Assembly (NCBI GenBank): GCA_022376925.1
Contig: JAIOJX010000001.1
Coordinates: forward strand, 3,009,501-3,073,500
DNA: 64,000 bases
Origin: Tragulus kanchil
Lineage: Eukaryota; Chordata; Mammalia; Artiodactyla; Tragulidae
Direction of reading: 5' to 3'
The position numbers and the translations under genes were made by a program. How positions within the stretch are numbered: position 1 is the stretch's first letter; the number at the start of each line of letters is the position of its first letter. Positions 767 to 51,958 of the stretch are shown here, piece by piece. The notes below the pieces were generated by a model that ran no database searches, was not told the origin of the DNA, and saw nothing but the letters and a program-made list of their open reading frames with translations.

Positions 767-2750
767 TAAGTTTAAGATATTACACTAAATTGATTTTAAG
801 TATAATCAACAGAGTGGACAGCAGACGCCTAGTGAAGGAGGAAGCCATTTCTGGTGAGGAAGACAAAGGGGTTGGATTGATCTTCCCTAGGGATATTGTA
901 GCTATCTAAAAGAACACCAGATTTCAGAGTAGAGAGGAAGACTGTGAGCCTGGAGACATAATCTCCAGAGAGAAGGTTAAGGACATCAATGCCGAAGCGA
1001 GGAACGTATTTCAAGCCATTATTACATTGTCTCCTCCTAGCCCTGGGCCTGATGCAGAGGCATATCATGGGTGGACAAGTGAATGAATGAATAATCTGAA
1101 GGGTTCAGAGTCCTAGAAAAATGCTGGAGTCAAAGGGAGTTTTGTTGCAGACACATGTTTAGGCCCCAAAGGGGGAACAGAGAGGCTTTCCTAAATTCCC
1201 ACAGTCATCGTAAAAGAAGTAGGTTGAGTCCCTAGGGATTCATCCCACAGTAGCCTTGGACTTGGTCACTCCTGCTCTGAATCCTACTCCAAGAGATTCT
1301 GCTGCAAGCCTTCCATGGGAGCGCTGATGAGAAGTCTCTGGTGGCTGCACTCTGGACAAAAAGGGTGACAGGCACTCGACCACCCTTGACACTCCTACTC
1401 CCTACATGCACACACCATTTGGCCTGGCTAGAGCTCAGGGCCTTGGGGACCCCTTAGAGAACCCTCTGAAGATGGAGGTATCCCTCCACAGATCTCTTTA
1501 CACAAGAAGGTGGGGCCTCCTGCTCTGAGCAGGTTTTTAACATACCCTAGGTCTTTGCTGCAGTATATGTGGGCACTTCAAATTTGGAATGTAAAGACTG
1601 CATTTCATAGTAGAAGAGCCTTCTGCTTACTGACTTCCTATTATTCTGAGGTCATTTTGTATAAGGGTTATAGATATAAATAATTGCAACAGAATTTTCA
1701 ATAGTAAATGTTATTGCTATAGATTGAAAACACAAAACCAAAATAAGTCCTTTTAGAGTCTATTGTATAAGTTTAAGATATTACACTAAATTGATTTTAA
1801 GTATAATCAACAGAGTGGACAGCAGCGCCTAGTGAAGGAGGAAGCCATTTCTGGTGAGGAAGACAAAGGGGTTGGATTGATCTTCCCTAGGGATATTGTA
1901 GCTATCTAAAAGAACACCAGATTTCAGAGTAGAGAGGAAGACTGTGAGCCTGGAGACATAATCTCCAGAGAGAAGGTTAAGGACATCAATGCCGAAGCGA
2001 GGAACGTATTTCAAGCCATTATTACATTGTCTCCTCCTAGCCCTGGGCCTGATGCAGAGGCATATCATGGGTGGACAAGTGAATGAATGAATAATCTGAA
2101 GGGTTCAGAGTCCTAGAAAAATGCTGGAGTCAAAGGGAGTTTTGTTGCAGACACATGTTTAGGCCCCAAAGGGGGAACAGAGAGGCTTTCCTAAATTCCC
2201 ACAGTCATCGTAAAAGAAGTAGGTTGAGTCCCTAGGGATTCATCCCACAGTAGCCTTGGACTTGGTCACTCCTGCTCTGAATCCTACTCCAAGAGATTCT
2301 GCTGCAAGCCTTCCATGGGAGCGCTGATGAGAAGTCTCTGGTGGCTGCACTCTGGACAAAAAGGGTGACAGGCACTCGACCACCCTTGACACTCCTACTC
2401 CCTACATGCACACACCATTTGGCCTGGCTAGAGCTCAGGGCCTTGGGGACCCCTTAGAGAACCCTCTGAAGATGGAGGTATCCCTCCACAGATCTCTTTA
2501 CACAAGAAGGTGGGGCCTCCTGCTCTGAGCAGGTTTTTAACATACCCTAGGTCTTTGCTGCAGTATATGTGGGCACTTCAAATTTGGAATGTAAAGACTG
2601 CATTTCATAGTAGAAGAGCCTTCTGCTTACTGACTTCCTATTATTCTGAGGTCATTTTGTATAAGGGTTATAGATATAAATAATTGCAACAGAATTTTCA
2701 ATAGTAAATGTTATTGCTATAGATTGAAAACACAAAACCAAAATAAGTCC
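767..2750. repeat. Near-perfect tandem duplication 1 (~984 bp)
   Basis: Copy A is 767-1750 and copy B is 1768-2750, head to tail, with 17 bp of filler (1751-1767). The only difference seen is one base missing about 55 bp into copy B (near 1825). No gene or repeat family is recognised inside the unit. It is one of nine such duplications in the window and is probably an assembly join, not a biological repeat. Confidence 0.95.
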
Positions 2751-2845
2751 ATTAAAGGGTTGAAATGATATTAGGCTATATGACTTTTTTCTGCTATGGT
2801 AACTGCAGAGTGAAAAATAACAAATCCAATATTAAATGTGGACAT

Positions 2846-3203
2846 GGGGGGCTTTCCTGGTAGCTCAGTGGTAAAGAGTTTGCCTGCCAATGCAGGAGAC
2901 ACGGGTTCAATCACTGATCCAGGAAGATCTCACCTGCTGTGGAGCAACCAAGCCCATGAGCCCCAACTATGGAGCCTGTGCTCTAGAACCTTGGAACCAC
3001 AACTACTGAAGCTCGTGTGCCCTAGAGCCTGAGTTCCACAACAAGAGAAGTCTCCACAACAAGAGAAGGCACCTCAACAAGAAGACTGCTCACCTCAACT
3101 AGAGAGTATCCCCGACTCCCTGCAACTAGAGAAGAGCCTGCAGCAGCAGTGAAAACCTAGAATGGCCAAAAATAAATACATAGATTGCATTATAAAAAAA
3201 AAA
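2846..3203 (+). mobile_element. tRNA-Glu-derived SINE (CHR/Bov-tA type), full length
   Basis: It starts with the SINE head (gctttcctggtagctcagtgg) carrying the tRNA-like A and B boxes. The body is a run of 'caactagagaa/gagcc' segments, and it ends in aaaataaatacata plus an A-run. This is the ruminant/cetacean tRNA-Glu SINE layout and is unlike BovA2, which continues into 'ggagaaggaaatggcaaccc'. The copy is moderately diverged. Confidence 0.8.
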
Positions 3204-3311
3204 GTGGATAGGGGGGCTGGGCAGAGCAAACACTCAGTCATCATTGTGGAAACCTCACTTCCCACTTAAACTGCCTTTGCCTCGACACAGACTGAAAGCA
3301 AATGTCTGAGG

Positions 3312-3775: not shown

Positions 3776-5964
3776 ACTGTGGGCATGCCGAGCCCTCATC
3801 CCAGTTCTGCAGATGGGCCCACCCAGGCCAGTCAATCCCCTGCCTTCCCCTGAGGGTCAGGCCCCTTTCTGCTGGGCAGGGAGTAGATTATAAAAGCTGC
3901 ACCAAGCCCTGAATATGGGCTGCCCCTGAAACAGAGCGGGAGGAGGGAAGGAAATTGTTTTCCATGCTTATCTTCCTCCCTCGCTCCACACACTCACATA
4001 CCCACACACTAACTAAACAGCAAGATTTCTCAGGGTAAGGGTTTTTAGTCTGCATTGTTCAACATAGCAATTACTGCTTGTATATTGCCCAATGCCTAGT
4101 AAATGCTCAAAAATATTTGGTGAATGAACGAACTTTCAGATAACTCTATGAGGCAGATATTGTTTTATCCCCATCTTTCCAATGAGGAAACAGAGGCACA
4201 GAATAGTGAAGCAATAAGCACAAGTAACCTGCCTTCTTTCAGTCAATGAAACAGGAAATCACATTGCCCTTTTCTCATAGGTTTCCAGCTGCCACTGCCT
4301 GAAAATGTCCATTCAATCAATAATACCCAGCACGCATTTTTCCTTTCTTCCTTTCTAACAGAACTCTAGGTTTTGTTTATGAGCCTATTCCTTCCACATT
4401 GATCATATTATGCATTGGGTGAACCTGACCCTTTTTAGCATCTGAGACAGATTTGACTGGTTTGAGACAATATATCCCATTTGCCCTTAACTAGTTCAGA
4501 AATGGTAATGAGAAATGGAAAATTGACTAAGGGGTTTCAGGAGAGTTTTAGTTCACTCTTTTGATATAATTTCTATGAGTAATGCTCTCCCTCCTTCTGA
4601 AGGCAAGAGAAACAGCAAGCAACACCATTTGGTGGTATAATGTGTCACATAACCCAAGAGGAATAGCAATAAGATGAAGTCTGTGGACAGTAGAGTGGAA
4701 AGAACTTGAGTTCCTGATGATATTTATAAGCCACTGGATCAACCTGCCTAAAGCCACCCTACTTTGGCATTATGTGGTGCAATTAATGTCATTTTGGTTT
4801 GAACTAGCTTGATTTTGCTTTTTCTTTTATCTGGATCCAGATGTACAATAAATGACGACAACAGCCTTACTGTGGGCATGCCGAGCCCTCATCCCAGTTC
4901 TGCAGATGGGCCCACCCAGGCCAGTCAATCCCCTGCCTTCCCCTGAGGGTCAGGCCCCTTTCTGCTGGGCAGGGAGTAGATTATAAAAGCTGCACCAAGC
5001 CCTGAATATGGGCTGCCCCTGAAACAGAGCGGAGGAGGGAAGGAAATTGTTTTCCATGCTTATCTTCCTCCCTCGCTCCACACACTCACATACCCACACA
5101 CTAACTAAACAGCAAGATTTCTCAGGGTAAGGGTTTTTAGTCTGCATTGTTCAACATAGCAATTACTGCTTGTATATTGCCCAATGCCTAGTAAATGCTC
5201 AAAAATATTTGGTGAATGAACGAACTTTCAGATAACTCTATGAGGCAGATATTGTTTTATCCCCATCTTTCCAATGAGGAAACAGAGGCACAGAATAGTG
5301 AAGCAATAAGCACAAGTAACCTGCCTTCTTTCAGTCAATGAAACAGGAAATCACATTGCCCTTTTCTCATAGGTTTCCAGCTGCCACTGCCTGAAAATGT
5401 CCATTCAATCAATAATACCCAGCACGCATTTTTCCTTTCTTCCTTTCTAACAGAACTCTAGGTTTTGTTTATGAGCCTATTCCTTCCACATTGATCATAT
5501 TATGCATTGGGTGAACCTGACCCTTTTTAGCATCTGAGACAGATTTGACTGGTTTGAGACAATATATCCCATTTGCCCTTAACTAGTTCAGAAATGGTAA
5601 TGAGAAATGGAAAATTGACTAAGGGGTTTCAGGAGAGTTTTAGTTCACTCTTTTGATATAATTTCTATGAGTAATGCTCTCCCTCCTTCTGAAGGCAAGA
5701 GAAACAGCAAGCAACACCATTTGGTGGTATAATGTGTCACATAACCCAAGAGGAATAGCAATAAGATGAAGTCTGTGGACAGTAGAGTGGAAAGAACTTG
5801 AGTTCCTGATGATATTTATAAGCCACTGGATCAACCTGCCCTAAAGCCACCCTACTTTGGCATTATGTGGTGCAATTAATGTCATTTTGGTTTGAACTAG
5901 CTTGATTTTGCTTTTTTCTTTTATCTGGATCCAGATGTACAATAAATGACGCACAACAGCCTTA
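3776..5964. repeat. Near-perfect tandem duplication 2 (~1.09 kb)
   Basis: Copy A (3776-4868) abuts copy B (4869-5964) with no filler. Differences are single-base indels near the junction: a G-run base missing early in B (near 5032), and C and T run bases plus one C missing in the last ~130 bp of A (4748-4857). The unit holds MIR relics and otherwise unremarkable intergenic DNA. Same class of probable assembly duplication as the others. Confidence 0.95.
4050..4235. mobile_element. Two MIR relics in opposite orientation
   Basis: About 4050-4125 reads 'gcctagtaaatgctcaaaa...tggtgaatgaa', the 3' end of a plus-strand MIR. About 4138-4235 reads 'ccaatgaggaaacagaggca', the core of a minus-strand MIR. 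Both recur at about 5143-5328 because of tandem duplication 2. Confidence 0.6.
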
Positions 5965-15570: not shown

Positions 15571-16214
15571 AAAAAGAATGCAAAACAAAATATCCAAGAA
15601 ATGTGGAAGAATTTTAGAAGGTGTAATATTTAAGTAACTAGAATATCAGAAGAAGGAAAAGAAAGAGACTTTAATTTGTAAATTAAACAATACACATGTA
15701 AATACTCCTGGATCAGGGAAGAAGCTCCATTATAAATGTTTTAATATTTGAATTAAGATAAAAAATTGCTAATAATCAACATTGTGGAATATAGCAAAAG
15801 CTTTAAATTAGGGATAAGTTTATAGCACTAAGTGTATTTGAAAAAAATCTAAACTCGAGCTCTGAGATTACACCTTGAGGGTCTGGAGAAAGAAGAGCAA
15901 ATTAAGCTGAAGGTAAGCAGAAGAAAATAAATATGAATTTCTGTAGAAATCAATGAAATTAAAAATAGGAAAACAATATAGAAAATCAATGAAACAAAAC
16001 CTTATTATTTGAAAAGATCAACAAATTGATAATCTTCTAGCAAGGCTAACAAAAAAATTGAACCAGATAACCAATATAAGGAAACAGTACTATGAAAGCT
16101 CTATGTCTACAGATTTAACACATTACATAAAATCCTCTTCAATGACAGTACCTATAAAACTTCACAGAAGGATAAAAGTAATCTGGAAAACCTATATCTA
16201 CTACATAAACTAAA

Positions 16215-18363
16215 TCAGTAATCAGCATTCCTCAAAAAAGAAATCACTAAAACCAGATGGTTTCACTGGTGAATTCTACCAAACATCTAAAAAAGAACTA
16301 ACAATCCCGCATGGGATTTTCCAAAAAATAGAGCAGAAGGAATACTCATAATTCATTCTGTGGGACCATGACCCTAACACCAAAACCAGTAAAAGATATT
16401 ATAAGGAAGGAAAAGGCCACTGGATTTAGTCTGCCATAGCCCACACTCTGTCTGTGGAGTGTGCTTTCTCTGAATCTGAATAAATCTCTTTCTTACCTAA
16501 AAAAAAAAAAAAAGAAAGAAAGGAAAACTACAGACTAATATCTTTCATGAACATAGATCCAATGATCTTCAACAAAATATAAGCAAATCAAATCCAACAT
16601 GTATAAAAATTATATACCATGACCAAGCGAGATTTATTCCAGGTATACAAGGCCGGTTTAACATTAAAAGATCAATTAATGCAATCTATGACATCAATAA
16701 GCAAAAGTAAAAATATCATATTATATTAATTGTGTAGAGAAAGCATTTGATAAAATCCAGCACAGATTCGTGATAAAAATATTCTCAGTAAACTATGAAT
16801 AGAAGGAAATTTCTGCATTGCTTGCCACCTATGATCAGGAAAAAGGCAAGGATGCCTCCTCTGAGGCCTCCTATTCAACATCATACTGGAAGTTCTAGCT
16901 AGCACAATAAGAAAAGAAAAAAAATAAGATGTATAACTGGGGGAGGAAAAATTATGTATCCCTTTGTTCACTGAAGAAATGTTTATATACATCCAAGAAA
17001 AAGAACTAGGGCTCTTTGGAGAAATAACTGATTCTAGAACTAAGGCAATAAACATACGAAATGAGCCAGAGGTATCTTATATTGTTAGGAAGGTCTGAAG
17101 AAAAAACCTGTTAAGGGGCACGTAAATGTTGCATTCAGCAAAATCCATACTGTAGGAAACTGAACAAATTCTGTTTTGTTTTTTTTCCCAAAAAAATTAA
17201 CTGCAAGGAAAAAGAGGTAACAGGGGAAGGAATTACAGATAAAAAAGACTTAAGAGATACAATAATTGTCGTGATTAGAATTTGAACAAAACTAAAAAAA
17301 TCAGTAATCAGCATTCCTCAAAAGAAATCACTAAAACCAGATGGTTTCACTGGTGAATTCTACCAAACATCTAAAAAAGAACTAACAATCCCGCATGGGA
17401 TTTTCCAAAAAATAGAGCAGAAGGAATACTCATAATTCATTCTGTGGGACCATGACCCTAACACCAAAACCAGTAAAAGATATTATAAGGAAGGAAAAGG
17501 CCACTGGATTTAGTCTGCCATAGCCCACACTCTGTCTGTGGAGTGTGCTTTCTCTGAATCTGAATAAATCTCTTTCTTACCTAAAAAAAAAAAAAAAGAA
17601 AGAAAGGAAAACTACAGACTAATATCTTTCATGAACATAGATCCAATGATCTTCAACAAAATATAAGCAAATCAAATCCAACATGTATAAAAATTATATA
17701 CCATGACCAAGCGAGATTTATTCCAGGTATACAAGGCCGGTTTAACATTAAAAGATCAATTAATGCAATCTATGACATCAATAAGCAAAAGTAAAAATAT
17801 CATATTATATTAATTGTGTAGAGAAAGCATTTGATAAAATCCAGCACAGATTCGTGATAAAAATATTCTCAGTAAACTATGAATAGAAGGAAATTTCTGC
17901 ATTGCTTGCCACCTATGATCAGGAAAAAGGCAAGGATGCCTCCTCTGAGGCCTCCTATTCAACATCATACTGGAAGTTCTAGCTAGCACAATAAGAAAAG
18001 AAAAAAAATAAGATGTATAACTGGGGGAGGAAAAATTATGTATCCCTTTGTTCACTGAAGAAATGTTTATATACATCCAAGAAAAAGAACTAGGGCTCTT
18101 TGGAGAAATAACTGATTCTAGAACTAAGGCAATAAACATACGAAATGAGCCAGAGGTATCTTATATTGTTAGGAAGGTCTGAAGAAAAAACCTGTTAAGG
18201 GGCACGTAAATGTTGCATTCAGCAAAATCCATACTGTAGGAAACTGAACAAATTCTGTTTTGTTTTTTTTCCCAAAAAAATTAACTGCAAGGAAAAAGAG
18301 GTAACAGGGGAAGGAATTACAGATAAAAAAGACTTAAGAGATACAATAATTGTCGTGATTAGA
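16215..18363. repeat. Near-perfect tandem duplication 3 (~1.06 kb)
   Basis: Copy A is 16215-17279 and copy B is 17301-18363, with 21 bp of filler. An A-run is two bases shorter near the start of B. The unit is L1 RT sequence, so copy B looks like a second L1 piece but is the same piece repeated. Confidence 0.95.
16415..16513 (+). mobile_element. Small retrotransposed 3' end of an LTR-type transcript
   Basis: An 84-bp segment interrupts the L1. It contains AATAAA at 16479-16484, followed 15 bp later by a 15-A tail. Short direct repeats (about AAGGAAAA at 16407-16414 and 16518-16526) flank it. The signal-to-tail spacing is that of a real polyadenylated RNA end. Its 'gctttctctgaatctgaata' resembles ERV R regions. 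It recurs at about 17500 in duplication 3. Confidence 0.5.
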
Positions 18364-20232: not shown

Positions 20233-20735
20233 GATGAGATGACTGAGGTTGTAGAAATACCTGTGCTCATAACCACCTGAAACCATTTTAGTGTGTTAAA
20301 ATCAAAAACAAAGGGAAACCAGCCTTGGAAAACTCCCTGAGCAGATAAAACCAATTTAGTCAAACAAACAAAGTTTAATTTAGCTTATTTTGTAAGACTA
20401 ACTTGATCTGGGTCAGTTCTTGCTTATACCTCTGGAAATCATAAGCAAAACCTAAATTGTTTCCCCAAAGTGATGAGGTAATCACCAACCAATTCCCTAT
20501 CATTTAAGAAAATTCAAATATTATAACCGACCACTGTGAAGAACAGTCACTGCCTTTCTACTATATAAGCTGCTTTATAACAGTCCACCCTTGAGCCTCA
20601 TTCCATCTTTGGTTTAAGTGCTCTGTGTTCATGTCTTTTTGGCATGGGCAGAATAAACTGTTATTAATTACTACTTTAGTGATTTGTTGTTTTTACTTCT
20701 GTTGTTTCTGAACTTTTGACAAGTGTCTGAGGACT
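20233..20735 (+). mobile_element. ERV-type LTR upstream of the MAGE gene, sense
   Basis: Shows promoter-to-poly(A) order: TATA-like 'ctatataagctgc' near 20570, then AATAAA near 20651 in 'gggcagaataaactg'. It lies about 4.5 kb upstream of the MAGE start, in the same orientation. The left edge is a guess, and most of it is repeated at about 21486-21825 by duplication 4. The family was not identified. Confidence 0.5.
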
Positions 20736-22541
20736 GGCCTTTCCAAAAAAAAATTTTAACAGAAGATAAAGAATGCACTAGAAATATTATAGAATAGGAG
20801 CTATTAAAGTGATCAACACACAAATTATATATATATTCTAAACATACACTTGGTAGAAATGTATAATATATTTTTTACTAGGAATGAGGATTAAGAAGAT
20901 GAAAACCAGTGCTCTGGACTATGAGCTGTTAGATAACTTCAAATGAGCAGGACCTCCCCAAATACCGCTACTCAGCCTTTTCTGGGCAGAAAATGAATCT
21001 TTTAGAACAAAATGTTTCGGATTCTGGATGGCTGGTGAAGAGAGTCCATTGAAAGGGTTGCTTCCTTTCTGACTCTCCCCCACATTCACGGGCACTGCAG
21101 CTCGGCATCTAGAAACTAGTTTGTGGTGCAGAATCAGTCTCTCCAAGGGACGCAGCTGGACAAACGCTCAGAGGTGCCAGAGAGGAAGCCTCTCCCAGCC
21201 AGCGTTTCATCAAGGACCCGGGACCACGTTGAGGACCCTCAGGAGTGAGGACTGAGGTGGAGGCATCCTTCCAGAAGGTCCAGTGATTCCAGCTTCGCTC
21301 CTGATGACAGCTGTGGGAGGCCCCTGGCAGAGCCATTAGGCTATGAGCCTCCCTCAGTTCTGCCCTGGAAGTCTCAGAGAGGTAAGAGCCTTGGCTGGAC
21401 GGGGATAGACTCGGGTCAGAAGAGGGAGAGTCTCAGGCCCTGTCATGAGTGGCAAAAGGGATCTCCCTTTAAAAAATTAAGCTTAAAGACTAACTTGACG
21501 GGTCAGTTCTTGCTTATACCTCTGGAAATCATAAGCAAAACCTAAATTGTTTCCCCAAAGTGATGAGGTAATCACCAACCAATTCCCTATCATTTAAGAA
21601 AATTCAAATATTATAACCGACCACTGTGAAGAACAGTCACTGCCTTTCTACTATATAAGCTGCTTTATAACAGTCCACCCTTGAGCCTCATTCCATCTTT
21701 GGTTTAAGTGCTCTGTGTTCATGTCTTTTTGGCATGGGCAGAATAAACTGTTATTAATTACTACTTTAGTGATTTGTTGTTTTTACTTCTGTTGTTTCTG
21801 AACTGTTGACAAGTGTCTGAGGACTGGCCTTCCAAAAAAAAAATTTTAACAGAAGATAAAGAATGCACTAGAAATATTATAGAATAGGAGCTATTAAAGT
21901 GATCAACACACAAATTATATATATATTCTAAACATACACTTGGTAGAAATGTATAATATATTTTTTACTAGGAATGAGGATTAAGAAGATGAAAACCAGT
22001 GCTCTGGACTATGAGCTGTTAGATAACTTCAAATGAGCAGGACCTCCCCAAATACCGCTACTCAGCCTTTTCTGGGCAGAAAATGAATCTTTTAGAACAA
22101 AATGTTTCGGATTCTGGATGGCTGGTGAAGAGAGTCCATTGAAAGGGTTGCTTCCTTTCTGACTCTCCCCCACATTCACGGGCACTGCAGCTCGGCATCT
22201 AGAAACTAGTTTGTGGTGCAGAATCAGTCTCTCCAAGGGACGCAGCTGGACAAACGCTCAGAGGTGCCAGAGAGGAAGCCTCTCCCAGCCAGCGTTTCAT
22301 CAAGGACCCGGGACCACGTTGAGGACCCTCAGGAGTGAGGACTGAGGTGGAGGCATCCTTCCAGAAGGTCCAGTGATTCCAGCTTCGCTCCTGATGACAG
22401 CTGTGGGAGGCCCCTGGCAGAGCCATTAGGCTATGAGCCTCCCTCAGTTCTGCCCTGGAAGTCTCAGAGAGGTAAGAGCCTTGGCTGGAAGGGGATAGAC
22501 TCGGGTCAGAAGAGGGGAGAGTCTCAGGCCCTGTCATGAGT
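20394..22541. repeat. Near-perfect tandem duplication 4 (~1.06 kb)
   Basis: Copy A is 20394-21450 and copy B is 21486-22541, with 35 bp of filler (21451-21485). Differences: a 2-base loss about 12 bp into B, a T/G change and a run-length change near 21805-21835, and two differences in the last ~55 bp of A. The unit covers the LTR 3' part and the first part of the MAGE upstream region. Confidence 0.95.
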
Positions 22542-25161: not shown

Positions 25162-26303
25162 GCCTGCGGTCCCCGTCTGCCTGTCCTCCTGCCCACACTC
25201 TTGTCTGCGGTTAGACCCCAGTCATCATGCCTCATCTTCCAAAGCGCCGGCGTTGCATGCCTGAGGAAGGCTGTGAGCCCCAAAGCAATACCCTGGATGT
25301 GGAAGAGGATGCGTCGTCATCCTCCTCCACCTGTTCCTCCTCTTTTCCCTTATCCTCCTCTTCCTCTTCCTCTTGCCTTTCTCTGATCTTCAGCTCCTTT
25401 GAGGAGGAGCTTTGTTTTATTCCTCAAATTGAGAGCCCTTTAGAGAACCCTCTGAGTTCCTCCCCTTCTCCCACTGCTGTTGCCTCTCCTCCATTGAGCC
25501 AATCTGAGGCTGGCTCCAGCAGCCAAAAAGAGGAGACTCTGAGCAGCTCTCAGGATCTGCCAGATGCTGAGTTCTTGACCAGAAATATGATTAATGTCAA
25601 GGTGGCTGCTCTGATAGAGTTTCTGATTCTCAAGTATCGTGCCAAGGAGCTGACCACAAAGGATGAAATGCTGAATGTCATCATCACGGATGGCGAGGAG
25701 CACTTCTCTGAGATCTTCAGGGAAGCGTCAGAGTGCATGCAGCTGGTCTTTGGTGTGGATGTGAAGGAAGTGGACCCCAGCGACCACTCCTTTGCCCTGG
25801 TCACCACTCTGGGCCTCACTTACAGTGGGATGCTGAGCGATGAACAGACCATGCCCAACACTGGTATGCTGATACTTATCCTGAGCATCATCTTTATGGA
25901 GGGCCCCTGTATCAGTGAGGAGGAGATATGGGAAGCGCTGAGTAAGATAGAAGTCTATGCTGGGCTAGATCACTTTATCTATGGGGAGCCTAGGGAGCTT
26001 ATTACCAAACTGTGGGTGCAGGAGCAGTACCTGGAGTACCGACAGATTCCCAACAGCGATCCTGCCCGCTATGAGTTTCTGTGGGGTCCTAGGGCCCACG
26101 CGGAGATCAGCAAGATGGCTCTCCTGGAGTTTTTGGCCAATGTCAGTGACTGTGATGCTAGATCCTTCCCTGTGTGGTATGAAGAGGCACTGAGAGATGA
26201 GGCAGACAGGGCCCTGTCTAGAATTGCCACCACAGAAGATACCCTGGTCATGGCCAGCGCGAGTTCAAGTGACATGTCCAGCAGCCTCTTCTGCCCTGAG
26301 TGA
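25162..26303 (+). CDS. MAGEA10: MAGE-A family protein, MAGEA10-like (CDS 25227-26303)
   Basis: The final exon starts after acceptor 'ttctctcccccag' (AG at 25160-25161). A 65-bp 5' UTR leads to the ATG at 25227 (A at -3), giving 358 residues with no internal break. Residues 1-14 are the MAGEA10-type start MPHLPKRRRCMPEE. Residues 29-50 are a serine-rich run from a TCC/TCT repeat. About 123-323 is the MAGE homology domain: EFLILKYRAKELTTKDEML (131-149), LGLTYSGMLSDEQ (195-207), SDPARYEFLWGPRAHAEI (277-294) and SFPVWYEEAL (313-322). The C-terminus ASASSS...PE is also MAGEA10-like; the human protein is about 369 aa. MAGE proteins bind RING E3 ligases through this domain and MAGE-A genes are normally testis-restricted. 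Orthology to MAGEA10 rather than another ruminant MAGE-A paralogue is from memory. Confidence 0.85.
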
Positions 26304-26800: not shown

Positions 26801-26950
26801 TCACTGGTCCATTTATTCCCCAGACCTTCACGGAGCGCCTATTCTCTGGAAGGTTCTGTGGTAGCAGTGGGGCCACCAGGAGAGGCAGGACACACCCACT
26901 CCTAGACGGATGGTCTAGGAGCCCAACCAAGGGCTAACCCTGGTGAGGCA

Positions 26951-27391
26951 GGTATGCTGATACTTATCCTGAGCATCATCTTTATGGAGGGCCCCTGTAT
27001 CAGTGAGGAGGAGATATGGGAAGCGCTGAGTAAGATAGAAGTCTATGCTGGGCTAGATCACTTTATCTATGGGGAGCCTAGGGAGCTTATTACCAAACTG
27101 TGGGTGCAGGAGCAGTACCTGGAGTACCGACAGATTCCCAACAGCGATCCTGCCCGCTATGAGTTTCTGTGGGGTCCTAGGGCCCACGCGGAGATCAGCA
27201 AGATGGCTCTCCTGGAGTTTTTGGCCAATGTCAGTGACTGTGATGCTAGATCCTTCCCTGTGTGGTATGAAGAGGCACTGAGAGATGAGGCAGACAGGGC
27301 CCTGTCTAGAATTGCCACCACAGAAGATACCCTGGTCATGGCCAGCGCGAGTTCAAGTGACATGTCCAGCAGCCTCTTCTGCCCTGAGTGA
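26951..27391 (+). pseudogene. Apparent second, truncated MAGE (C-terminal 146 codons); probable assembly duplicate
   Basis: Identical in protein sequence to residues 213-358 of the upstream gene and in the same frame to the stop at 27389-27391. It has no start region, promoter or splice acceptor of its own. A naive annotation would call a 145-aa MAGE from the internal Met at 26954. Zero divergence together with the junction pattern argues that this is the same DNA assembled twice, not a real pseudogene. Confidence 0.8.
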
Positions 27392-28043
27392 AATCCAAGG
27401 CCCATTCTTCAGTCTCTTTTAAGAAGAGCAGTCAGTGATCTGAGTGGTAGAAGGTCACACTGGGGGCGAGGGAATCATAGTTAATAACGTTTTTGTTTCT
27501 GTTGTGTAGGGGTGACTTAGAACTCTGTCTTCTATTTTCAGCTATTTTAAAATGTTTTTGCTCAACTAGAAAGTCTGATATTCTCAGAATCTAAGTTTAT
27601 GAATGAGATTGGCCATGCATTTATTGGTTTTTATTCAGTTTAGAAAAAAGAGCTTTATTATTTTAAGATAAATTATGAAACCTTTCATCTTATTTGTAGT
27701 CTGTAATAAGATGACATTAGAGTAGGAATTTCCTTGAAAATGTAAAAGAACTTAGTAGAGAAAGAATTAAATGGTTTTTAAAAATTTTTCATTACTTTTA
27801 GTCTATTCTATAAAATGAAGATATGCACCTGGATGTTGCTTATTAAATGCTGTAGAAGAAATAAAATAATAATAAATGAAATCTTTGCTCACTGGTCCAT
27901 TTATTCCCCAGACCTTCACGGAGCGCCTATTCTCTGGAAGGTTCTGTGGTAGCAGTGGGGCCACCAGGAGAGGCAGGACACACCCACTCCTAGACGGATG
28001 GTCTAGGAGCCCAAGGCTACCCTGGGTGAGGAGGTGGGACTCC

Positions 28044-28836: not shown

Positions 28837-28868
28837 AAAGTTTTAAAAGTGATAAAAATATTTTACAT

Positions 28869-31101
28869 TCTTTTAAACTTTGGTCAAAATTATGCTTAAA
28901 ATATTGTCTCAATGTTGTTTCAATTTGTGTCGTCTCCATTTTCTCATTAGGTTAAACAGAACATTTATTTAGTGCCTCACCCGTGTAAAACTGGGTTGAT
29001 GTAGTGATGTCCCAAGTGACAGGATTCCTCTGAGCATGATTTAATCACAGAGCATCCTGGTTCCCTTCTCACTGAGAAGCAAGGATTCAGTCAAGAGCCA
29101 GGGGAGGGAACCAGAAAGAATACCCTCAGCTGACGAGGGGCATTGAGAGCATCGCTGGGGAAAGAGAGACGTGCAAAGCCAAGTCCAGAGAGCCCCAGGC
29201 AGGCTGACAGCCAGGACCTTGAAGCCAGAGTTCAGTGTAGCGGGCAGAGGACCCCAAAGGAGAGAAGTTGGGGAAGGGAAAGTGTACAGGACAAGGGATG
29301 TAAAGAGGTTGGGGAGATCTCTGGACCGTGCTCCCCAGCTGGAAGTTGCAGGGTGCTCTGAGTGGTCAGGTCTATTGGATGAATGGACCAGAGGCATGCC
29401 AGACAGCCCCTCCTAGCCTCAGAATCCCCCTGCCTCTGTCAGCAAGAGTACACCTGACTCTGTGCGTCATTCGGGGGAGCTTCATCTCTTGACTACCCGC
29501 GTGGTCCTGTGCACCTGTGCCAGTGTTTCAGGGCGGGGCTGGAAACTGGCATGGTGCCTCTTGGAGGCTGAGGACTCTTCCCAGGTTATAGCAACACTCC
29601 ATGGAGGTCGGGGCCATCTGGGTGCAGGTGGTGACTGGGGCCAGACAGGTGAACAGGCCAGAAATGCCCAAGAGCTGGGGAAGGGAGTGTATAGACAGCT
29701 GTAAAGAGGGTGGGATTGGAATAGGAGAGCCACCGGAAGTGAGGACGAGGCTCCTGTAAGAGTTTCTTATTCAGTAAGTGAATAGTAATTTGAGTCTGGA
29801 GTTCACAGCAGAGCCTTTAGTCCCATCGTGTTCACATTTAAGTGATGAGGGCAGTTTAAGTGCGCCGTATATATGGGTTCATCTGGTCAGTGTGCTCGGG
29901 CCTCTGGTACAAGAAAAGATAACAATTAACCACACCTGCTGGATCTCAGAATCGTTAAACCCATGAAACCCAACAGTTTTCACTCAGTTTTCTTTTAAAC
30001 TTTGGTCAAAATTATGCTTAAAATATTGTCTCAATGTTGTTTCAATTTGTGTCGTCTCCATTTTCTCATTAGGTTAAACAGAACATTTATTTAGTGCCTC
30101 ACCCGTGTAAAACTGGGTTGATGTAGTGATGTCCCAAGTGACAGGATTCCTCTGAGCATGATTTAATCACAGAGCATCCTGGTTCCTTCTCACTGAGAAG
30201 CAAGGATTCAGTCAAGAGCCAGGGGAGGGAACCAGAAAGAATACCCTCAGCTGACGAGGGGCATTGAGAGCATCGCTGGGGAAAGAGAGACGTGCAAAGC
30301 CAAGTCCAGAGAGCCCCAGGCAGGCTGACAGCCAGGACCTTGAAGCCAGAGTTCAGTGTAGCGGGCAGAGGACCCCAAAGGAGAGAAGTTGGGGAAGGGA
30401 AAGTGTACAGGACAAGGGATGTAAAGAGGTTGGGGAGATCTCTGGACCGTGCTCCCCAGCTGGAAGTTGCAGGGTGCTCTGAGTGGTCAGGTCTATTGGA
30501 TGAATGGACCAGAGGCATGCCAGACAGCCCCTCCTAGCCTCAGAATCCCCCTGCCTCTGTCAGCAAGAGTACACCTGACTCTGTGCGTCATTCGGGGGAG
30601 CTTCATCTCTTGACTACCCGCGTGGTCCTGTGCACCTGTGCCAGTGTTTCAGGGCGGGGCTGGAAACTGGCATGGTGCCTCTTGGAGGCTGAGGACTCTT
30701 CCCAGGTTATAGCAACACTCCATGGAGGTCGGGGCCATCTGGGTGCAGGTGGTGACTGGGGCCAGACAGGTGAACAGGCCAGAAATGCCCAAGAGCTGGG
30801 GAAGGGAGTGTATAGACAGCTGTAAAGAGGGTGGGATTGGAATAGGAGAGCCACCGGAAGTGAGGACGAGGCTCCTGTAAGAGTTTCTTATTCAGTAAGT
30901 GAATAGTAATTTGAGTCTGGAGTTCACAGCAGAGCCTTTAGTCCCATCGTGTTCACATTTAAGTGATGAGGGCAGTTTAAGTGCGCCGTATATATGGGTT
31001 CATCTGGTCAGTGTGCTCGGGCCTCTGGTACAAGAAAAGATAACAATTAACCACACCTGCTGGATCTCAGAATCGTTAAACCCATGAAACCCAACAGTTT
31101 T
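28869..31101. repeat. Near-perfect tandem duplication 6 (~1.11 kb)
   Basis: Copy A is 28869-29980 and copy B is 29991-31101, with about 10 bp of filler. One C-run base is missing in B (near 30186). The unit is GC-moderate intergenic DNA with several short open frames on both strands, identical in the two copies, and none with a recognisable domain. Confidence 0.95.
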
Positions 31102-31319
31102 CTATTTCTCCCCTCTCAGCCTTTTGCCTAATCTTGGTGTGCATTTTCCTCTTCCATATGTTATAAACTCCACCATACATTGTTATGATCTTTAAGTAGT
31201 CAATTATCTCTCAAAGACATTTACACAAGTAAGGGAGTCCTCCTCTGTTCCCACATTAAGCTGCAATCCAGGGGCTCTTCATTAATTTGTAGATTCAGAT
31301 TTCCATCTGGCATAATATT

Positions 31320-31702: not shown

Positions 31703-31747
<45 letters not shown>

Positions 31748-35150: not shown

Positions 35151-35384
35151 TTCATTCACACAGTGTCCTAATAGAGCCATGAATGGATTTCTCTCATTGA
35201 TGTGATGCCACATTCTTGTGCCTCAGGAATTTTCTTACCACTTTATCATTTGTTTTTTGTTCTTTTTGAAACTCATCAATCCCTATTTTTACCAAGTGAT
35301 TTTATTCCAAAGATGTTGATATAGATTTTTAGTTACAAAAAAATGAGCACATAATATATTTGCAATGGAATAACCTTATGGTTG

Positions 35385-35605
35385 GGTTTCCCTGGTGGCT
35401 CAGTGGTAAAGAACCAGCCTGCAATGCAGGAGACATAACGAATGAGGCCTTAATCCCTGGGTAGGGAAGATCCCATGGAGAAGGAAAGGACAATCCACTC
35501 CATTATTCTTACATTGGAAATCCCATGGACAGAGGAGCCTGGGAGGGCTGCAGTCAACAGGGTCCCAAAGATTTTGACACAACTGAGCAACTAAACAACA
35601 ACACA
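35385..35605 (+). mobile_element. BovA2 SINE (repeated at 36483-36703)
   Basis: Head 'tttccctggtggctcagtgg' to tail 'gacacaactgagcaactaaa'. The second copy comes from tandem duplication 7. Confidence 0.9.
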
Positions 35606-35786
35606 ATCTTATAGTATTTTTTTGTTTTCCTTTTTGAAAACATACATTCATATTCTCCGAAAAGGAATAAAAGAGAAATAATAAATAACAATGTCTTTAC
35701 CAATGCTTTTTTTAAACCAACCTTGCTTTCTGTATAACCAGAATCCCCCCCCTCCCCACTCCCCAACAAAACAGTATCTGTTCCTC

Positions 35787-36004
35787 GTGTATGCTAAGTT
35801 GCATCAGTTGTCTCTGACTGTTTGCGATCCTATGGACCATAGCCCACCAGGCTTCTCTGTTCCTGGAAATCTTTAGGCAGCAATACTGGAGTGGACTGCC
35901 ATGTCCTCCTCTAGGGAGTCTTCCCAACCCAGGGGTCAGCCCTGCACCCCTTATGTCTCCCGCATTGCAGGCTAGTTCTTTACCACTAGTGCCACCTGGG
36001 AACC
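35787..36004 (-). mobile_element. BovA2 SINE (repeated at 36885-37102)
   Basis: Antisense layout ending 'ctagtgccacctgggaaccc'. The second copy comes from tandem duplication 7. Confidence 0.85.
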
Positions 36005-37318
36005 CAATTATTCAAATCTCTTCAAGAGATACACTTTCCTTAGCTCAGGACCCCTGTGAGACAATCATTGCATGATGAGGATCCTCAAAATTTTGTGAAG
36101 CCCCGCTGTTCAACAAGGATATTTGTACTGTTTAGAGGCCTTGTAATAATATTTTAAAAGTCTTTTTTTCCTATCTGAAAAGGTTTCTAAAGGCCCATTT
36201 TAATATTGTCTGATGTCTTAGTGTGTTAGTCACTCAGTCATGTCCGACTCTGCGATCCCATGGGCTGCAGCCCACCATTCACACAGTGTCCTAATTTTTA
36301 AAGGGCCACATTCTTGTGCCTCAGGAATTTTCTTACCACTTTATCATTTGTTTTTTGTTCTTTTTGAAACTCATCAATCCCTATTTTTACCAAGTGATTT
36401 TATTCCAAAGATGTTGATATAGATTTTTAGTTACAAAAAAATGAGCACATAATATATTTGCAATGGAATAACCTTATGGTTGGGTTTCCCTGGTGGCTCA
36501 GTGGTAAAGAACCAGCCTGCAATGCAGGAGACATAACGAATGAGGCCTTAATCCCTGGGTAGGGAAGATCCCATGGAGAAGGAAAGGACAATCCACTCCA
36601 TTATTCTTACATTGGAAATCCCATGGACAGAGGAGCCTGGGAGGGCTGCAGTCAACAGGGTCCCAAAGATTTTGACACAACTGAGCAACTAAACAACAAC
36701 ACAATCTTATAGTATTTTTTTGTTTTCCTTTTTGAAAACATACATTCATATTCTCCGAAAAGGAATAAAAGAGAAATAATAAATAACAATGTCTTTACCA
36801 ATGCTTTTTTTAAACCAACCTTGCTTTCTGTATAACCAGAATCCCCCCCCTCCCCACTCCCCAACAAAACAGTATCTGTTCCTCGTGTATGCTAAGTTGC
36901 ATCAGTTGTCTCTGACTGTTTGCGATCCTATGGACCATAGCCCACCAGGCTTCTCTGTTCCTGGAAATCTTTAGGCAGCAATACTGGAGTGGACTGCCAT
37001 GTCCTCCTCTAGGGAGTCTTCCCAACCCAGGGGTCAGCCCTGCACCCCTTATGTCTCCCGCATTGCAGGCTAGTTCTTTACCACTAGTGCCACCTGGGAA
37101 CCCAATTATTCAAATCTCTTCAAGAGATACACTTTCCTTAGCTCAGGACCCCTGTGAGACAATCATTGCATGATGAGGATCCTCAAAATTTTGTGAAGCC
37201 CCGCTGTTCAACAAGGATATTTGTACTGTTTAGAGGCCTTGTAATAATATTTTAAAAGTCTTTTTTTCCTATCTGAAAAGGTTTCTAAAGGCCCATTTTA
37301 ATATTGTCTGATGTCTTA

Positions 37319-37514
37319 GTGTGTTAGTCACTCAGTCATGTCCGACTCTGCGATCCCATGGGCTGCAGCCCACCAGGCTCTTCTGTCTGGAGAATTCTCC
37401 AGGGAATGGAATGGGCTGCCATTCCCTTCTCCAGAAGATCTTCCCAATCCAGGAATCAAACCTGGGTATCCTGCATTGCAGGAAGAATCTTTACCATGTA
37501 AGCCACCAGGGCAG
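37319..37514 (-). mobile_element. BovA2 SINE with 15-bp target-site duplication
   Basis: Flanked by TTGTCTGATGTCTTA (37304-37318) and TTGTCTGATATCTTA (37515-37529), one mismatch. The first ~56 bp also appear at 36221-36276, cut off by the duplication 7 junction. Confidence 0.9.
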
Positions 37515-45449: not shown

Positions 45450-45900
45450 GTACAAGTAATTTCAATAGAGAAGATTTAATATAAAGAATTATTTACTAGG
45501 CATAACATTGTGAACTCCATGGTCTCAAGGGTAAAATGAGAGAGCTCGAAGGGACCATGGTGGTTAAAAACAGAAGGAAGTAGCAGGACTGGTGGGACAG
45601 AAGGAAGAGGTTAGAATTACTGAAACATTAAAGACACTGAAACTGGGAGATGTGGCCTTGTGGATTGAAGCCCAGACTTCTGACAGAAGTTCTCTGCTGA
45701 TGTTGGTGTCCATAAGCTCAGAGGAGCCTGACAACCGGACTTCTGAAGAGTGGGCACTATGTATTTCTCTAAGGAGAGCTCCGTGAAACCGGTTCTGAAA
45801 GGGTTGGAAAACTGCAGATGGATTCATTTGCTTCTATAGGAAGGACCTTTGTCTGCTAGGTGTAGAAGCCTTGCTGGACTGATCCCCAGAGGAACTGCAG
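45450..45900 (+). mobile_element. Interspersed repeat related to 41385-41745
   Basis: See that entry. Part of this copy is repeated at about 46706-46980 by tandem duplication 8. Confidence 0.4.
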
Positions 45901-47781
45901 GAAGTGCCGAGAAGCAAATAAGAAGAAACTAAGCCTTTGTTCCTTCTCCAAACTTAGTCTGTCTTTCTATTGGCAGAGACTCAAGGCAAATATGAGCAGA
46001 TGATCTTTGTTTCTGAAACAGGTCATGAGGCTATGAGTGACATTTAAAACATTTTCTTCGCTATAGCTTTCTGTTCTTATTTTAAAATATTTTGATAGAA
46101 TTACTATGTATATACATAGTATGTACAAATAATGTGCATTAATTCAGAAATTTTTGTAACTGTGTAATACCAGAGTCAAAAAATATCAGGTCAAGAAATA
46201 AACCATGACCAGAATCCCAGATGCCCCTCATGACTTTTCTAATAAATGCCTCATCCAACAACCCAAAGATAACCACTGTTCTGATCCTTCACATCATAGG
46301 TTTTAACTTTATAATACTAGCATGTGTTCTGTCTTTAACTTATTTTGTTTAAATTATGTTTCTGAAATTCACTTATCTTCTTGCTTTTAACAGTAGTGTA
46401 TTCATTTTCATTAATGCATTAGTCAGGATTCTCCAAAGAACAGAACATGTGTGTGTGTGTCTTTTTCAACTACCCGTTCTGTAGTCCCTTTACCTTCAAG
46501 CTGGCTGTGGTTCTTTATCTGGTAGGGTCTGGGTCATTAGAAGTCCTGCTTGAATTGGGTTACTACAGTTTTCTATTGGCTTTAATCATAGGGCATGGTA
46601 AGTAAGATACTAAGAGACATCCTAAGGGATGTTCCATATTCGGACATAGTTCATTCAGTGTGGACCAGCAGTTCAATTTCCCATTGGTAGTCAGGCTTGC
46701 AGAAAATTAAAAGACACTGAAACTGGGAGATGTGGCCTTGTGGATTGAAGCCCAGACTTCTGACAGAAGTTCTCTGCTGATGTTGGTGTCCATAAGCTCA
46801 GAGGAGCCTGACAACCGGACTTCTGAAGAGTGGGCACTATGTATTTCTCTAAGGAGAGCTCCGTGAAACCGGTTCTGAAAGGGTTGGAAAACTGCAGATG
46901 GATTCATTTGCTTCTATAGGAAGGACCTTTGTCTGCTAGGTGTAGAAGCCTTGCTGGACTGATCCCCAGAGGAACTGCAGGAAGTGCCGAGAAGCAAATA
47001 AGAAGAAACTAAGCCTTTGTTCCTTCTCCAAACTTAGTCTGTCTTTCTATTGGCAGAGACTCAAGGCAAATATGAGCAGATGATCTTTGTTTCTGAAACA
47101 GGTCATGAGGCTATGAGTGACATTTAAAACATTTTCTTCGCTATAGCTTTCTGTTCTTATTTTAAAATATTTTGATAGAATTACTATGTATATACATAGT
47201 ATGTACAAATAATGTGCATTAATTCAGAAATTTTTGTAACTGTGTAATACCAGAGTCAAAAAATATCAGGTCAAGAAATAAACCATGACCAGAATCCCAG
47301 ATGCCCCTCATGACTTTTCTAATAAATGCCTCATCCAACAACCCAAAGATAACCACTGTTCTGATCCTTCACATCATAGGTTTTAACTTTATAATACTAG
47401 CATGTGTTCTGTCTTTAACTTATTTTGTTTAAATTATGTTTCTGAAATTCACTTATCTTCTTGCTTTTAACAGTAGTGTATTCATTTTCATTAATGCATT
47501 AGTCAGGATTCTCCAAAGAACAGAACATGTGTGTGTGTGTCTTTTTCAACTACCCGTTCTGTAGTCCCTTTACCTTCAAGCTGGCTGTGGTTCTTTATCT
47601 GGTAGGGTCTGGGTCATTAGAAGTCCTGCTTGAATTGGGTTACTACAGTTTTCTATTGGCTTTAATCATAGGGCATGGTAAGTAAGATACTAAGAGACAT
47701 CCTAAGGGATGTTCCATATTCCGGACATAGTCTTCCTTACCTTCAGTGTGGACCAGCAGTTCAATTTCCCATTGGTAGTCA
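45627..47781. repeat. Near-perfect tandem duplication 8 (~1.07 kb)
   Basis: Copy A is 45627-46694 and copy B is 46706-47781, with about 11 bp of filler. The end of A lacks bases present in B ('cggacatagttcattcagtg' against 'ccggacatagtcttccttac'). No gene inside. Short (GT)n runs occur at about 46449 and 47529. Confidence 0.95.
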
Positions 47782-48488
47782 GGGTCTACTGCACTAGCCA
47801 GCACAGGACCTGTTGATTCACAGGCATGAGGAGCCCATAGAGGCTGAGTGACAGTTTTAACTTCCTCCAGTTCAATGGAATCATTGTGGTCTGGTCCTCA
47901 TGGAAGCACCCTCCCCCTGGAACTAAGACCGCGAGGCCCACAGAGCAGAATGCTGTAGAGACAGGAACCAAAGCTTTTGTTCCTGGGTCACTGGTGGTAA
48001 TAGAGAGTGCTGCCACCCTCATTTCCAGCCCGTGATGTCCACACCCTCAAATCCTGGGTGTGGGAGAAACGGCACTGTACAGTGGGCTCTGAGGGAGAAC
48101 ATACAGGCACTTCTGTATTCAGCTTTGGTCAGACCCTGGCCCTGCCTTAGAGGTGTCCCCACCCAGCTGGCACTGCATCTGTAAGATGCACTGTAAGAAC
48201 AGCGAATTCCATGAGCCCTGGAATTCGTCTTTCACTTCCTCCTGTTCTTCAGGAGGAGTTCAATTGCTCTGAATTTCTGCTGAGATATGCCACTAAACTC
48301 CTGCAGTAAATCTTTTAAGTGATTGTAGTTTCTGTTTCAGAATCTCTATTTAGTTCGTTTTATAATTTCTCTATTTATGTACTCTATATGGTGAGACTTT
48401 GTTTCCTTTAGCTTCCTTTTGGTTTAGGTTTTCATTAGTTCTTTGCCCATGGTTTCCTATAGATTTTTAAGTAAAATCAGCCAGTTGA
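47782..48488 (-). mobile_element. Mixed intergenic and L1M antisense relic (L1 part from about 48230)
   Basis: 47782-48229 has nothing I recognise. 48230-48488 ('agtaaatcttttaagtgatt', 'gaatctctatttagttcgtt') reads like the antisense L1M 3' region and continues at 48619-49175. Confidence 0.4.
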
Positions 48489-48603: not shown

Positions 48604-48618
48604 TTTAAAGCCTCTCTT

Positions 48619-49178: not shown

Positions 49179-49189
49179 AAACAAAGGCA

Positions 49190-49457
49190 CGGGCTTCCCT
49201 GGTGGTCCAGTGGGTAAGGATACCACCTTGCAGTGCAAGGAGTGCTGGTTTGATCCCTGGCCCGGGAAGATCCCACATGCTGCAGAGTATCTGGACTGAT
49301 GTGTCCAACTACCGAGCCGGAGCTCTGGTTCTCATGTGCCCAGAGCCAGTGTTCTGCGATGAGAGAGGCCACTGCGATGGGAGGCCCACACAGGCCAAAG
49401 AACAAAGATGGAAATAAATGAAAGACCAATTAGAAGTGGCCAAAAAAAAAATGAGGG
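49190..49457 (+). mobile_element. tRNA-Glu SINE, 'gaagtggcc'-tail subfamily (copy 6)
   Basis: Perfect 11-bp target-site duplication AAACAAAGGCA (49179-49189 and 49458-49468). Full-length body ending 'agaagtggcc' plus A-run. Confidence 0.9.
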
Positions 49458-49634
49458 AAACAAAGGCAAACCCCTTAATGAATCCCTTAGGGAGTCACCA
49501 GACAGGAAAAATTCACTACCACAATTATTTGACAATAAGGCCTGTATTGTCCCCTGTGGCACTGGCAACATTCTTCCTAAAGCTGGAGGATGGCCAGCAG
49601 GTGCCCTCTCAGAGCAAAGTGCATCTGAGCTCTA

Positions 49635-49830
49635 ACGATGGGCTGGCCCGTTTGGGGTTTGGCCTGAGACATGCTCCGTCTGCTGGTCCAGCTGCATCCA
49701 GGGACCAGCAGAAGCACTTGGGAACTTGTTGGAAATGCAGCATCTCAGGCCTGCTCCAGACTCTCTGACTCAAAATCTGCATTTTCCCAAGATCCTCGGG
49801 AGTTTCAGGTACTTTATAGTATGAGGTGAA
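49635..49830 (+). mobile_element. MER5-like DNA transposon relic with flank
   Basis: 'gggaacttgttggaaatgca' and 'caaaatctgcattttcccaa' mark the MER5-type core. The inverted relative is at 3312-3545. Confidence 0.5.
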
Positions 49831-51958
49831 CTGCAAATCTGGTGTTCCTACATCAAGAATTTATCAAACCAGGCTGGTTCATGTTGGAAATCTTGAAATT
49901 GCTTTTTTATTAATATCTGTGAGCAAATTGCTAGAAAGGACAAGCACTTTGGCAGCCCAGACCCCTTCCTGAGATTCCGCCTGAGGTAAGTGTGTAATCA
50001 TCAGGCCTCAGTCGCAGATCAGGAGCTGCTCAGCCATGGTGGAAAAGGCACAGATGTGTGGCTGTTGGCTAAACGCAAGCTGGCTCTCCCCCAATTGAGT
50101 GGCCCCATGGCACCTTGCCTGGTTAGTGACCTTTCTATGGAAAGCCTCTTAGGTTACTCTGCCCCTGGAGCCTAACTTGGCAACTGTTTTCTTGCACACG
50201 CAATGCTCTCAGACTGTAGGGCAGGCAAGCTTGCCAGATTTACTTACTGTAATCAACAGAACAGCCAGTACACAGCTACCAGTGGAGGTCGCAGGAGGAG
50301 TGGGAAATCTAAGCCATGGGCCTCCTGAGTTCTAGGACGGGGGCGGAGGGGTGGGGGGTGGGGTGGGGATGCGTCAGATATCTCCTTGCTTTGCTTCATG
50401 AGGGGATTCTTGAGCTAGAGTGAAAAAATGTGGGCTCTAGCATTCTCATGCTTAAGGTCATTGAGACTTTAGGATACACACTTTTTTGCATACAGTGGAT
50501 CTCTCTGATGGATGCTACAGAGATTTCTTCCACTGAGGAGCTCACATTGACAGCTACTTCCTCCCAACAATGCTGATTTCTGGCTTCAGGACTCCATTCA
50601 AATACCCATCACAGTGGCCCTAGATGGGCCCCTGGGCCTCTTTGAAAGATGGTCCCTGAAGAAATCTGATTGCCTCCCATACAAAACACTGGACCTGATA
50701 GGTCCCTGGTCTGGTGCTTTCTTTGTAGCAATGTTACAAAGATGACAAAAGTTTTGGATTTTCTAAAGCTACATCAATCACCACAGACTAGCAAAGTGTT
50801 TCTGTCTTTAGCATCCCTATATCCCAGTTCTGACTTCCTCAAAACTCTTTTTACATGGAACCAAGCAGGCTGGGGAGTTTCAGGTACTTTATAGTATGAG
50901 GTGAACTGCAAATCTGGTGTTCCTACATCAAGAATTTATCAAACCAGGCTGGTTCATGTTGGAAATCTTGAAATTGCTTTTTTATTAATATCTGTGAGCA
51001 AATTGCTAGAAAGGACAAGCACTTTGGCAGCCCAGACCCCTTCCTGAGATTCCGCCTGAGGTAAGTGTGTAATCATCAGGCCTCAGTCGCAGATCAGGAG
51101 CTGCTCAGCCATGGTGGAAAAGGCACAGATGTGTGGCTGTTGGCTAAACGCAAGCTGGCTCTCCCCCAATTGAGTGGCCCCATGGCACCTTGCCTGGTTA
51201 GTGACCTTTCTATGGAAAGCCTCTTAGGTTACTCTGCCCCTGGAGCCTAACTTGGCAACTGTTTTCTTGCACACGCAATGCTCTCAGACTGTAGGGCAGG
51301 CAAGCTTGCCAGATTTACTTACTGTAATCAACAGAACAGCCAGTACACAGCTACCAGTGGAGGTCGCAGGAGGAGTGGGAAATCTAAGCCATGGGCCTCC
51401 TGAGTTCTAGGACGGGGGTGGAGGGGTGGGGGGTGGGGGTGGGGATGCGTCAGATATCTCCTTGCTTTGCTTCATGAGTGGATTCTTGAGCTAGAGTGAA
51501 AAAATGTGGGCTCTAGCATTCTCATGCTTAAGGTCATTGAGACTTTAGGATACACACTTTTTTGCATACAGTGGATCTCTCTGATGGATGCTACAGAGAT
51601 TTCTTCCACTGAGGAGCTCACATTGACAGCTACTTCCTCCCAACAATGCTGATTTCTGGCTTCAGGACTCCATTCAAATACCCATCACAGTGGCCCTAGA
51701 TGGGCCCCTGGGCCTCTTTGAAAGATGGTCCCTGAAGAAATCTGATTGCCTCCCATACAAAACACTGGACCTGATAGGTCCCTGGTCTGGTGCTTTCTTT
51801 GTAGCAATGTTACAAAGATGACAAAAGTTTTGGATTTTCTAAAGCTACATCAATCACCACAGACTAGCAAAGTGTTTCTGTCTTTTAGCATCCCCTATAT
51901 CCCAGTTCTGACTTCCTCAAAACTCTTTTTCTACACATGGAACCAAGCAGGCTGGGGA
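49801..51958. repeat. Near-perfect tandem duplication 9 (~1.08 kb)
   Basis: Copy A (49801-50875) abuts copy B (50876-51958). The last ~75 bp of A lack bases present in B (T and C runs near 50809-50818, and 'ctaca' changes near 50851). Two single-base differences and a G-run length change also occur at about 50339-50403 against 51414-51479. The short open frames inside are identical and unremarkable. Confidence 0.95.
50336..50369 (+). repeat. G-rich run, G-quadruplex-prone (repeated at 51411-51446)
   Basis: Five or more G-runs of 3-6 separated by 1-3 bases. The length differs by one G between the duplicate copies, as expected for a hard-to-read homopolymer stretch. Confidence 0.7.

Follow-up and report, generated by a model that had tools for sequence, protein, structure and literature searches.

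We report that nine adjacent head-to-tail duplications of about 1.1 kb in the genome assembly of the mouse deer Tragulus kanchil (GCA_022376925.1) are an assembly error and not biology. They lie in a stretch of 64,000 nt (hereafter the window), which covers positions 3,009,501 to 3,073,500 of contig JAIOJX010000001.1 (hereafter C1) in an assembly of 3,167,203,957 bases and 32 contigs. As an explanation of the whole, we have high confidence in an artefact in which consensus pieces based on nodes of 1024 bp were abutted without trimming the node that they share. The evidence comes from the window and from a contiguous 254 kb made up of the window and 190 kb of neighbouring sequence on C1.

Self-comparison by BLAST and global alignment of each pair recovered nine direct, adjacent and near-identical pairs (Table 1), in keeping with a preliminary description of the window that had listed nine duplications of about 1.0 to 1.1 kb with edges within about 20 bp of ours. 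The offset between the two copies averages 1085 bp (standard deviation 35 bp), and BLAST identities range from 99.08 to 100%. All nine sizes fall within 12% of one another, which cannot reasonably be of chance origin. The offsets total 9,762 bp, or 15% of the window, matching the previous estimate of about 9.7 kb of false sequence.

Some of the edges deserve comment. In pair 1, the first ~17 nt of copy 2 are rich in errors. For pair 5, the start previously given at 25863 holds, while the end at 28043 does not: the clean match stops at 28014, and the sequence after copy 2 is only an error-containing match to the 24-nt spacer that separates the copies. In pair 7, BLAST placed the start at 35207. 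The first 18 nt of copy 2 of this pair are identical to 35155–35172; 9 nt that replace 34 come next, and the remainder is 100% identical (35207–36277 equals 36305–37375). Hence, the earlier start, previously set at 35151, is the better one and the offset is 1123 bp, or 1098 bp without the short head of copy 2. Within the window, no tandem pair of 20-mers at a distance of 200–5000 bp was found after position 51959, as had been stated for the region beyond 52 kb. Outside the window that statement does not extend, as pairs resume 3.4 kb past its end (window position 67395); the pair-free last 12 kb therefore have no special meaning. At 31684–31937 there are two (AT)n tracts, each with about 31 copies, and neither is associated with a pair.

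The differences between the copies are informative about their origin. Over the nine pairs there are 21 insertion or deletion (indel) events and 7 substitutions, and 22 of these 28 differences are found no more than 200 bp from a unit end, a zone in which an even spread would place 37% of them. For 20 of the 21 indels, the copy lacking the bases is the one nearer to its own junction end (one-sided binomial test, 1e-5; the events are not fully independent), such that copy 2 is the shorter one near the left edge and copy 1 near the right edge. Three of the four deletions in pair 9 are close to the end of copy 1. Four deletions are likewise grouped near the end of copy 1 in pair 8, which also includes the only indel in the window that contradicts this polarity.

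The same pattern holds in the 254 kb, with 134 indels versus 63 substitutions. There, 113 of the 134 indels obey the end rule (p ~1e-16 if independent), and among the 55 unit ends that carry indels 45 agree with the polarity, 6 are tied and 4 oppose it. The share of differing alignment columns falls with distance from the nearer end, from 3.4% in the last 25 bp to 2.4% at 25–50 bp, 1.6% at 50–100 bp and 0.7% at 100–200 bp; deeper in the units it is 0.15% (200–300 bp), 0.04% (300–400 bp) and 0.13% (400–600 bp). The decay is the same on either side of the junctions. These polarised differences look like the free ends of two consensus pieces, each with a well-supported interior and a poor end. 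The dominance of indels, their ramp towards the ends, their polarity and a ratio of transitions to transversions of 23:40 suggest, at the level of sequence, that consensus quality, and not allelic variation, sets the copies apart.

These data bear on two explanations in which both copies would be real DNA. The first is that two haplotypes were placed side by side (heterotype false duplication), which passages of Ko et al. (PMC9516828) present as a common source of false duplication. Against it, the differences are mainly indels at the unit ends and are rare mid-unit, 4 of the 48 pairs in the 254 kb have no difference in the aligned part, the ratio of 23:40 resembles that of errors, and a fixed size of 1.1 kb is not expected of haplotypes either. 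We regard this explanation as highly improbable.

The second is that a single biological process favouring a certain size produced real tandem duplications. Mutations that follow a true duplication would be spread along both copies; the corresponding pattern, with even mutations in both copies and more substitutions than indels, was not found in the 254 kb. Nor would mutation be expected to produce such a decay towards the free ends of consensus blocks. Moreover, error-rich continuations of the neighbouring sequence occur in half of the longer spacers: the junctions include 14 spacers of 15 nt or more, and 7 of these resemble the sequence with which a neighbouring piece should continue (p ≤ 0.01 for each; 2e-11 when all 14 are combined by Fisher's method), a test that is weaker in the window alone than in the 254 kb. 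Together with the polarity and end ramp of the indels, the junction grid of 1024 bp described below and a density that, extrapolated from the 254 kb, would put the number of recent duplications in this single genome in the hundreds of thousands, this leaves real duplication extremely improbable, its sole support being the presence of the pairs in the assembly. A duplication process based on microhomology or spacers was also considered, given apparent overlaps at the junctions (up to 20 nt) and spacers as long as 61 nt, and was rejected: the spacers are in part (7 of 14) error-rich true continuation, so no repair signature is claimed.

The pairs are not peculiar to the window. In the 254 kb, 48 pairs were found with an offset of 1102 ± 31 bp (range 1003–1184 bp), amounting to 52,886 bp or 20.8% of the sequence and on average to one pair per 5.3 kb. 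A wider listing (offsets of 200–6000 bp, matches of at least 150 bp) added only two rows, both double offsets of neighbouring pairs. None of the 48 junctions contains an N; the sole N-run, of 97 N, is located elsewhere. The pieces between the junctions span 2–18 kb continuously. Two 10-kb stretches on C5 and C15, the sole unselected samples from other chromosomes, contain three pairs each, and the artefact was present on all four chromosomes inspected (C1, C5, C6 and C15).

The preliminary description had attributed the duplications to unmerged ends of about 1 kb at gap-filled joins. The unmerged ends are borne out by the end decay and the polarity; the gap-filled joins are contradicted by the density of the pairs, the lack of N and a grid of about 1024 bp. 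In this scenario, separate contigs overlapping by about 1 kb would have been abutted, or a filler read would have kept its anchors. It would produce the same end decay and a uniform size, and in passages of Rhie et al. (PMC8081667) overlapping sequence at contig boundaries is described as ending up in tandem after scaffolding. Eight of the nine pairs in the window fall into four close couples, which first hinted at fillers anchored on each side. This filler model was dropped, as the 254 kb show a grid, and short and long pieces do not clearly alternate there. The continuous range of 2–18 kb shows no succession of short filler and long contig, the junctions lie on the grid, and 48 pairs in 254 kb without N would demand contigs of about 5 kb, which would probably be much too short for scaffolding into chromosomes of 73–297 Mb. 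Since the same decay is found on both sides of the junctions, neither side is simply a raw filler read. Overall, gap-filled joins are quite improbable as the source.

The distances between junctions in the 254 kb group near 2, 3, 4 and 6 units of about 1034–1054 bp. For the uncollapsed pieces, the best-fitting unit was 1034 bp (all pieces), 1054 bp (pieces below 8 kb) or 1048 bp (below 5 kb), and in each case none of 1000 jittered sets was as good. In the window alone the best unit was 1042 bp (p = 0.002 in a narrow scan, 0.019 in a wide scan). We hold the steps from which the shared part has been removed to be the physically meaningful test of the grid, in preference to the uncollapsed pieces. 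These steps gave 1024.5 bp as the best unit (n = 47), a fit that none of 5000 random placements equalled, with 30 of 47 within 0.15 of a unit multiple where about 14 were expected. When the four steps from C5 and C15 were added, the best unit was 1025.5 bp (n = 51; 0 of 3000; scan from 700 to 1600 bp).

A grid of some kind would also result if a polishing or consensus step had cut the contigs into chunks overlapping by about 1 kb that were rejoined untrimmed; fixed overlaps and end decay would follow likewise. A single chunk length would then be expected, whereas the pieces vary from 2 to 17 units. With such variation, trimming must have succeeded at part of the junctions but not at the rest, which variable graph edges fit better. 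Chunked polishing is an improbable, if conceivable, origin of the pairs.

Three features together point to an assembler with nodes of about 1024 bp and piecewise consensus: the overlap has a fixed size close to one grid unit, the junctions lie on that grid, and both free ends decay. Likewise, the occurrence of pairs every 5.3 kb, the position of the N-run away from any pair and the spacing of about 1024 bp point to a regular failure of trimming between consensus blocks inside contigs. Under the node-based explanation, a long-read assembler would represent the genome as a chain of graph nodes of ~1024 bp. Consensus would be made for each stretch between nodes, with adjacent stretches sharing one node. 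At many nodes the overlap would not be found or not be trimmed, and the two consensus pieces would be abutted. The shared node, of about 1.1 kb with its margins, would then be present twice, head to tail and regardless of its content. The program would presumably be wtdbg or wtdbg2 (Redbean) with a failed consensus-joining step. The consensus caller of wtdbg2 joins the consensus of individual graph edges by overlap. According to passages of PMC7730629, Redbean/wtdbg2 merges segments of 1024 bp into vertices; in wtdbg2 the node length is a user parameter, for which values of 1536–2560 were tried in one paper (PMC11087460, likewise in part).

Several observations weigh against this explanation. 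Of the four steps contributed by C5 and C15, three are off the grid, and the estimate of the unit is broad (bootstrap 932–1091 bp). No grid of 256 bp, the bin size of wtdbg2, was detected in the window or the 254 kb (p 0.2–0.5), where jitter of tens of bp may mask it. The shared part, at 1.10 kb, exceeds the grid unit, an excess that is not fully explained. In the 254 kb, 21 of the 134 indels run contrary to the end rule, and the other 7 of the 14 spacers did not reach p ≤ 0.01 for a match to the expected continuation. In 4 of the 48 pairs the copies are identical throughout the aligned part, so that their failure to merge must predate polishing. Finally, a benchmark of human assemblies, one of them made from HiFi data with wtdbg2 (asm13), gives, in passages of PMC9668749, 0.3–2.3% false duplications for most assemblies and the highest values for asm19a/b, which are not wtdbg2 assemblies. 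By these figures, standard wtdbg2 would not be a cause at the present scale; some unusual setting or version, or a script run afterwards, would have to be involved.

In nature, the present case is one of homotype false duplication. As described in passages of Rhie et al. 2021 (PMC8081667) and Ko et al. 2022 (PMC9516828), a locus is represented by two neighbouring copies in the same order, which differ in consensus quality and not in alleles, and false exons or genes follow. The cases described there are often about read-sized and at contig boundaries, while here the size is fixed at about 1.1 kb and the pairs, which lie inside a chromosome at intervals of ~5 kb, have N-free junctions on a grid of about 1 kb and make up 20.8% of 254 kb. 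For false duplication of both kinds, Table 1 of Ko et al. 2022 (PMC9516828) gives 0.3–15.9% of six assemblies, together with falsely gained genes. The junction grid of 1024–1026 bp and a shared part of about one segment resemble the fuzzy Bruijn graph of wtdbg2/Redbean as outlined in parts of PMC7730629 and PMC11087460; unmerged segments as a genome-wide product are not reported in the portions of the open-access papers found. Judging by titles, abstracts and passages, no open-access report of this artefact was found.

One consequence for gene content can be seen in the window. Pair 5 repeats the 3′ part of the coding region of a MAGE gene, in line with the previous remark that one duplication lies in coding sequence. 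When six open reading frames were scanned against Pfam, only two MAGE frames were matched, the intact one and a false partial one (Table 1), and automatic annotation could report the latter as a non-existent partial paralog of MAGE. The assembly contains at least 49 DNA matches to one copy of this MAGE unit (40 of 51 first-look candidates were scored). Of the 47 listed matches that lie outside the window, 22 can be grouped into 11 pairs on the same strand, with a spacing of 1086–1153 bp, on C1, C15 and C31. Some of these could be true MAGE paralogs; where the surrounding DNA was compared, the flanking sequence was duplicated as well. Six loci examined outside the window represent four places. 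Five of them, at three places (L004 and L006, L005, L007 and L008), contain a tandem pair with 98.9–99.9% identity and an offset of 1086–1135 bp, in some cases clipped by the edge of the locus; the sixth, L003, has no tandem pair. Protein-based scans of genome contigs and viral contigs for an independent copy of the locus yielded no relative; of 28 and 6 pattern matches, respectively, none was confirmed.

The single-frame MAGE-A-like gene adjoins a G+C-rich stretch at 22–26 kb (58–66% G+C) with several minisatellites. G+C-rich minisatellites with units of 19–47 bp are located upstream of the MAGE frame at 23705–23863 and 24044–24321. The context of the MAGE gene and the many MAGE-like matches listed on C1 suggest that C1 is the X chromosome. 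Sixteen contigs of the assembly measure 73–297 Mb, which suggests a haploid set with about 16 large chromosomes. Three small contigs have round sizes of 200,000 (C14), 242,000 (C16) and 225,000 (C25), of the kind that Hi-C scaffolding programs leave when they cut at a fixed resolution.

Table 1. False tandem pairs and MAGE-family reading frames in the window (positions from the first base of the window)
Feature	Position	Strand	Copies or match	Offset (bp)	Evidence
False tandem pair 1	750..2750	+	750–1750, 1753–2750	1003	BLAST and alignment
False tandem pair 2	3776..5964	+	3776–4869, 4869–5964	1093	BLAST and alignment
False tandem pair 3	16212..18363	+	16212–17279, 17298–18363; 18-nt spacer	1086	BLAST and alignment
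False tandem pair 4	20394..22541	+	20394–21450, 21486–22541; 35-nt spacer	1092	BLAST and alignment
False tandem pair 5	25863..28014	+	25863–26926, 26951–28014; 100% identical	1088	BLAST and alignment
False tandem pair 6	28868..31102	+	28868–29981, 29990–31102	1122	BLAST and alignment
False tandem pair 7	35155..37375	+	35155–36277, 36278–37375	1123	BLAST and alignment
False tandem pair 8	45622..47783	+	45622–46695, 46702–47783	1080	BLAST and alignment
False tandem pair 9	49795..51958	+	49795–50876, 50870–51958	1075	BLAST and alignment
Intact MAGE-family open reading frame	25215..26303	+	Best solved-structure matches MAGE-A11 and MAGE-A4		Pfam PF01454, E-value 1.3e-16
False partial MAGE frame from pair 5	26906..27391	+	Profile positions 118–206 of 207 only		

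How far these results extend to the whole assembly depends on how typical the regions are. Removing 20.8% from the assembly of 3.167 Gb leaves about 2.5 Gb, a size in the usual range for a ruminant genome; SINE-like translations in the window may likewise point to a ruminant. If that share held throughout, this would be the true length and about 600,000 pairs would be present, as extrapolated from one 254-kb region and two 10-kb samples. By a similar extrapolation, if the window (15%) and the 254 kb (20.8%) are typical, some 0.5–0.7 Gb of the 3.17-Gb assembly would be false. We lean slightly towards the view that this is a previously undescribed, genome-wide failure of assemblers working with segments of 1024 bp, which would have created false tandem duplications the size of a node, roughly half a million in number, and inflated the genome by about one fifth. 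The combination of a fixed offset, polarised indels at the ends and a junction grid of 1024 bp would flag such assemblies without access to the reads.

Biologically, there is no duplication at these loci. If the regions analysed here are typical, the genome size and the gene models of this species would be corrupted, with repeated exons and broken frames as in the MAGE gene, and so would calls of segmental duplications and structural variants, the multi-mapping of reads and claims of gene family expansion.

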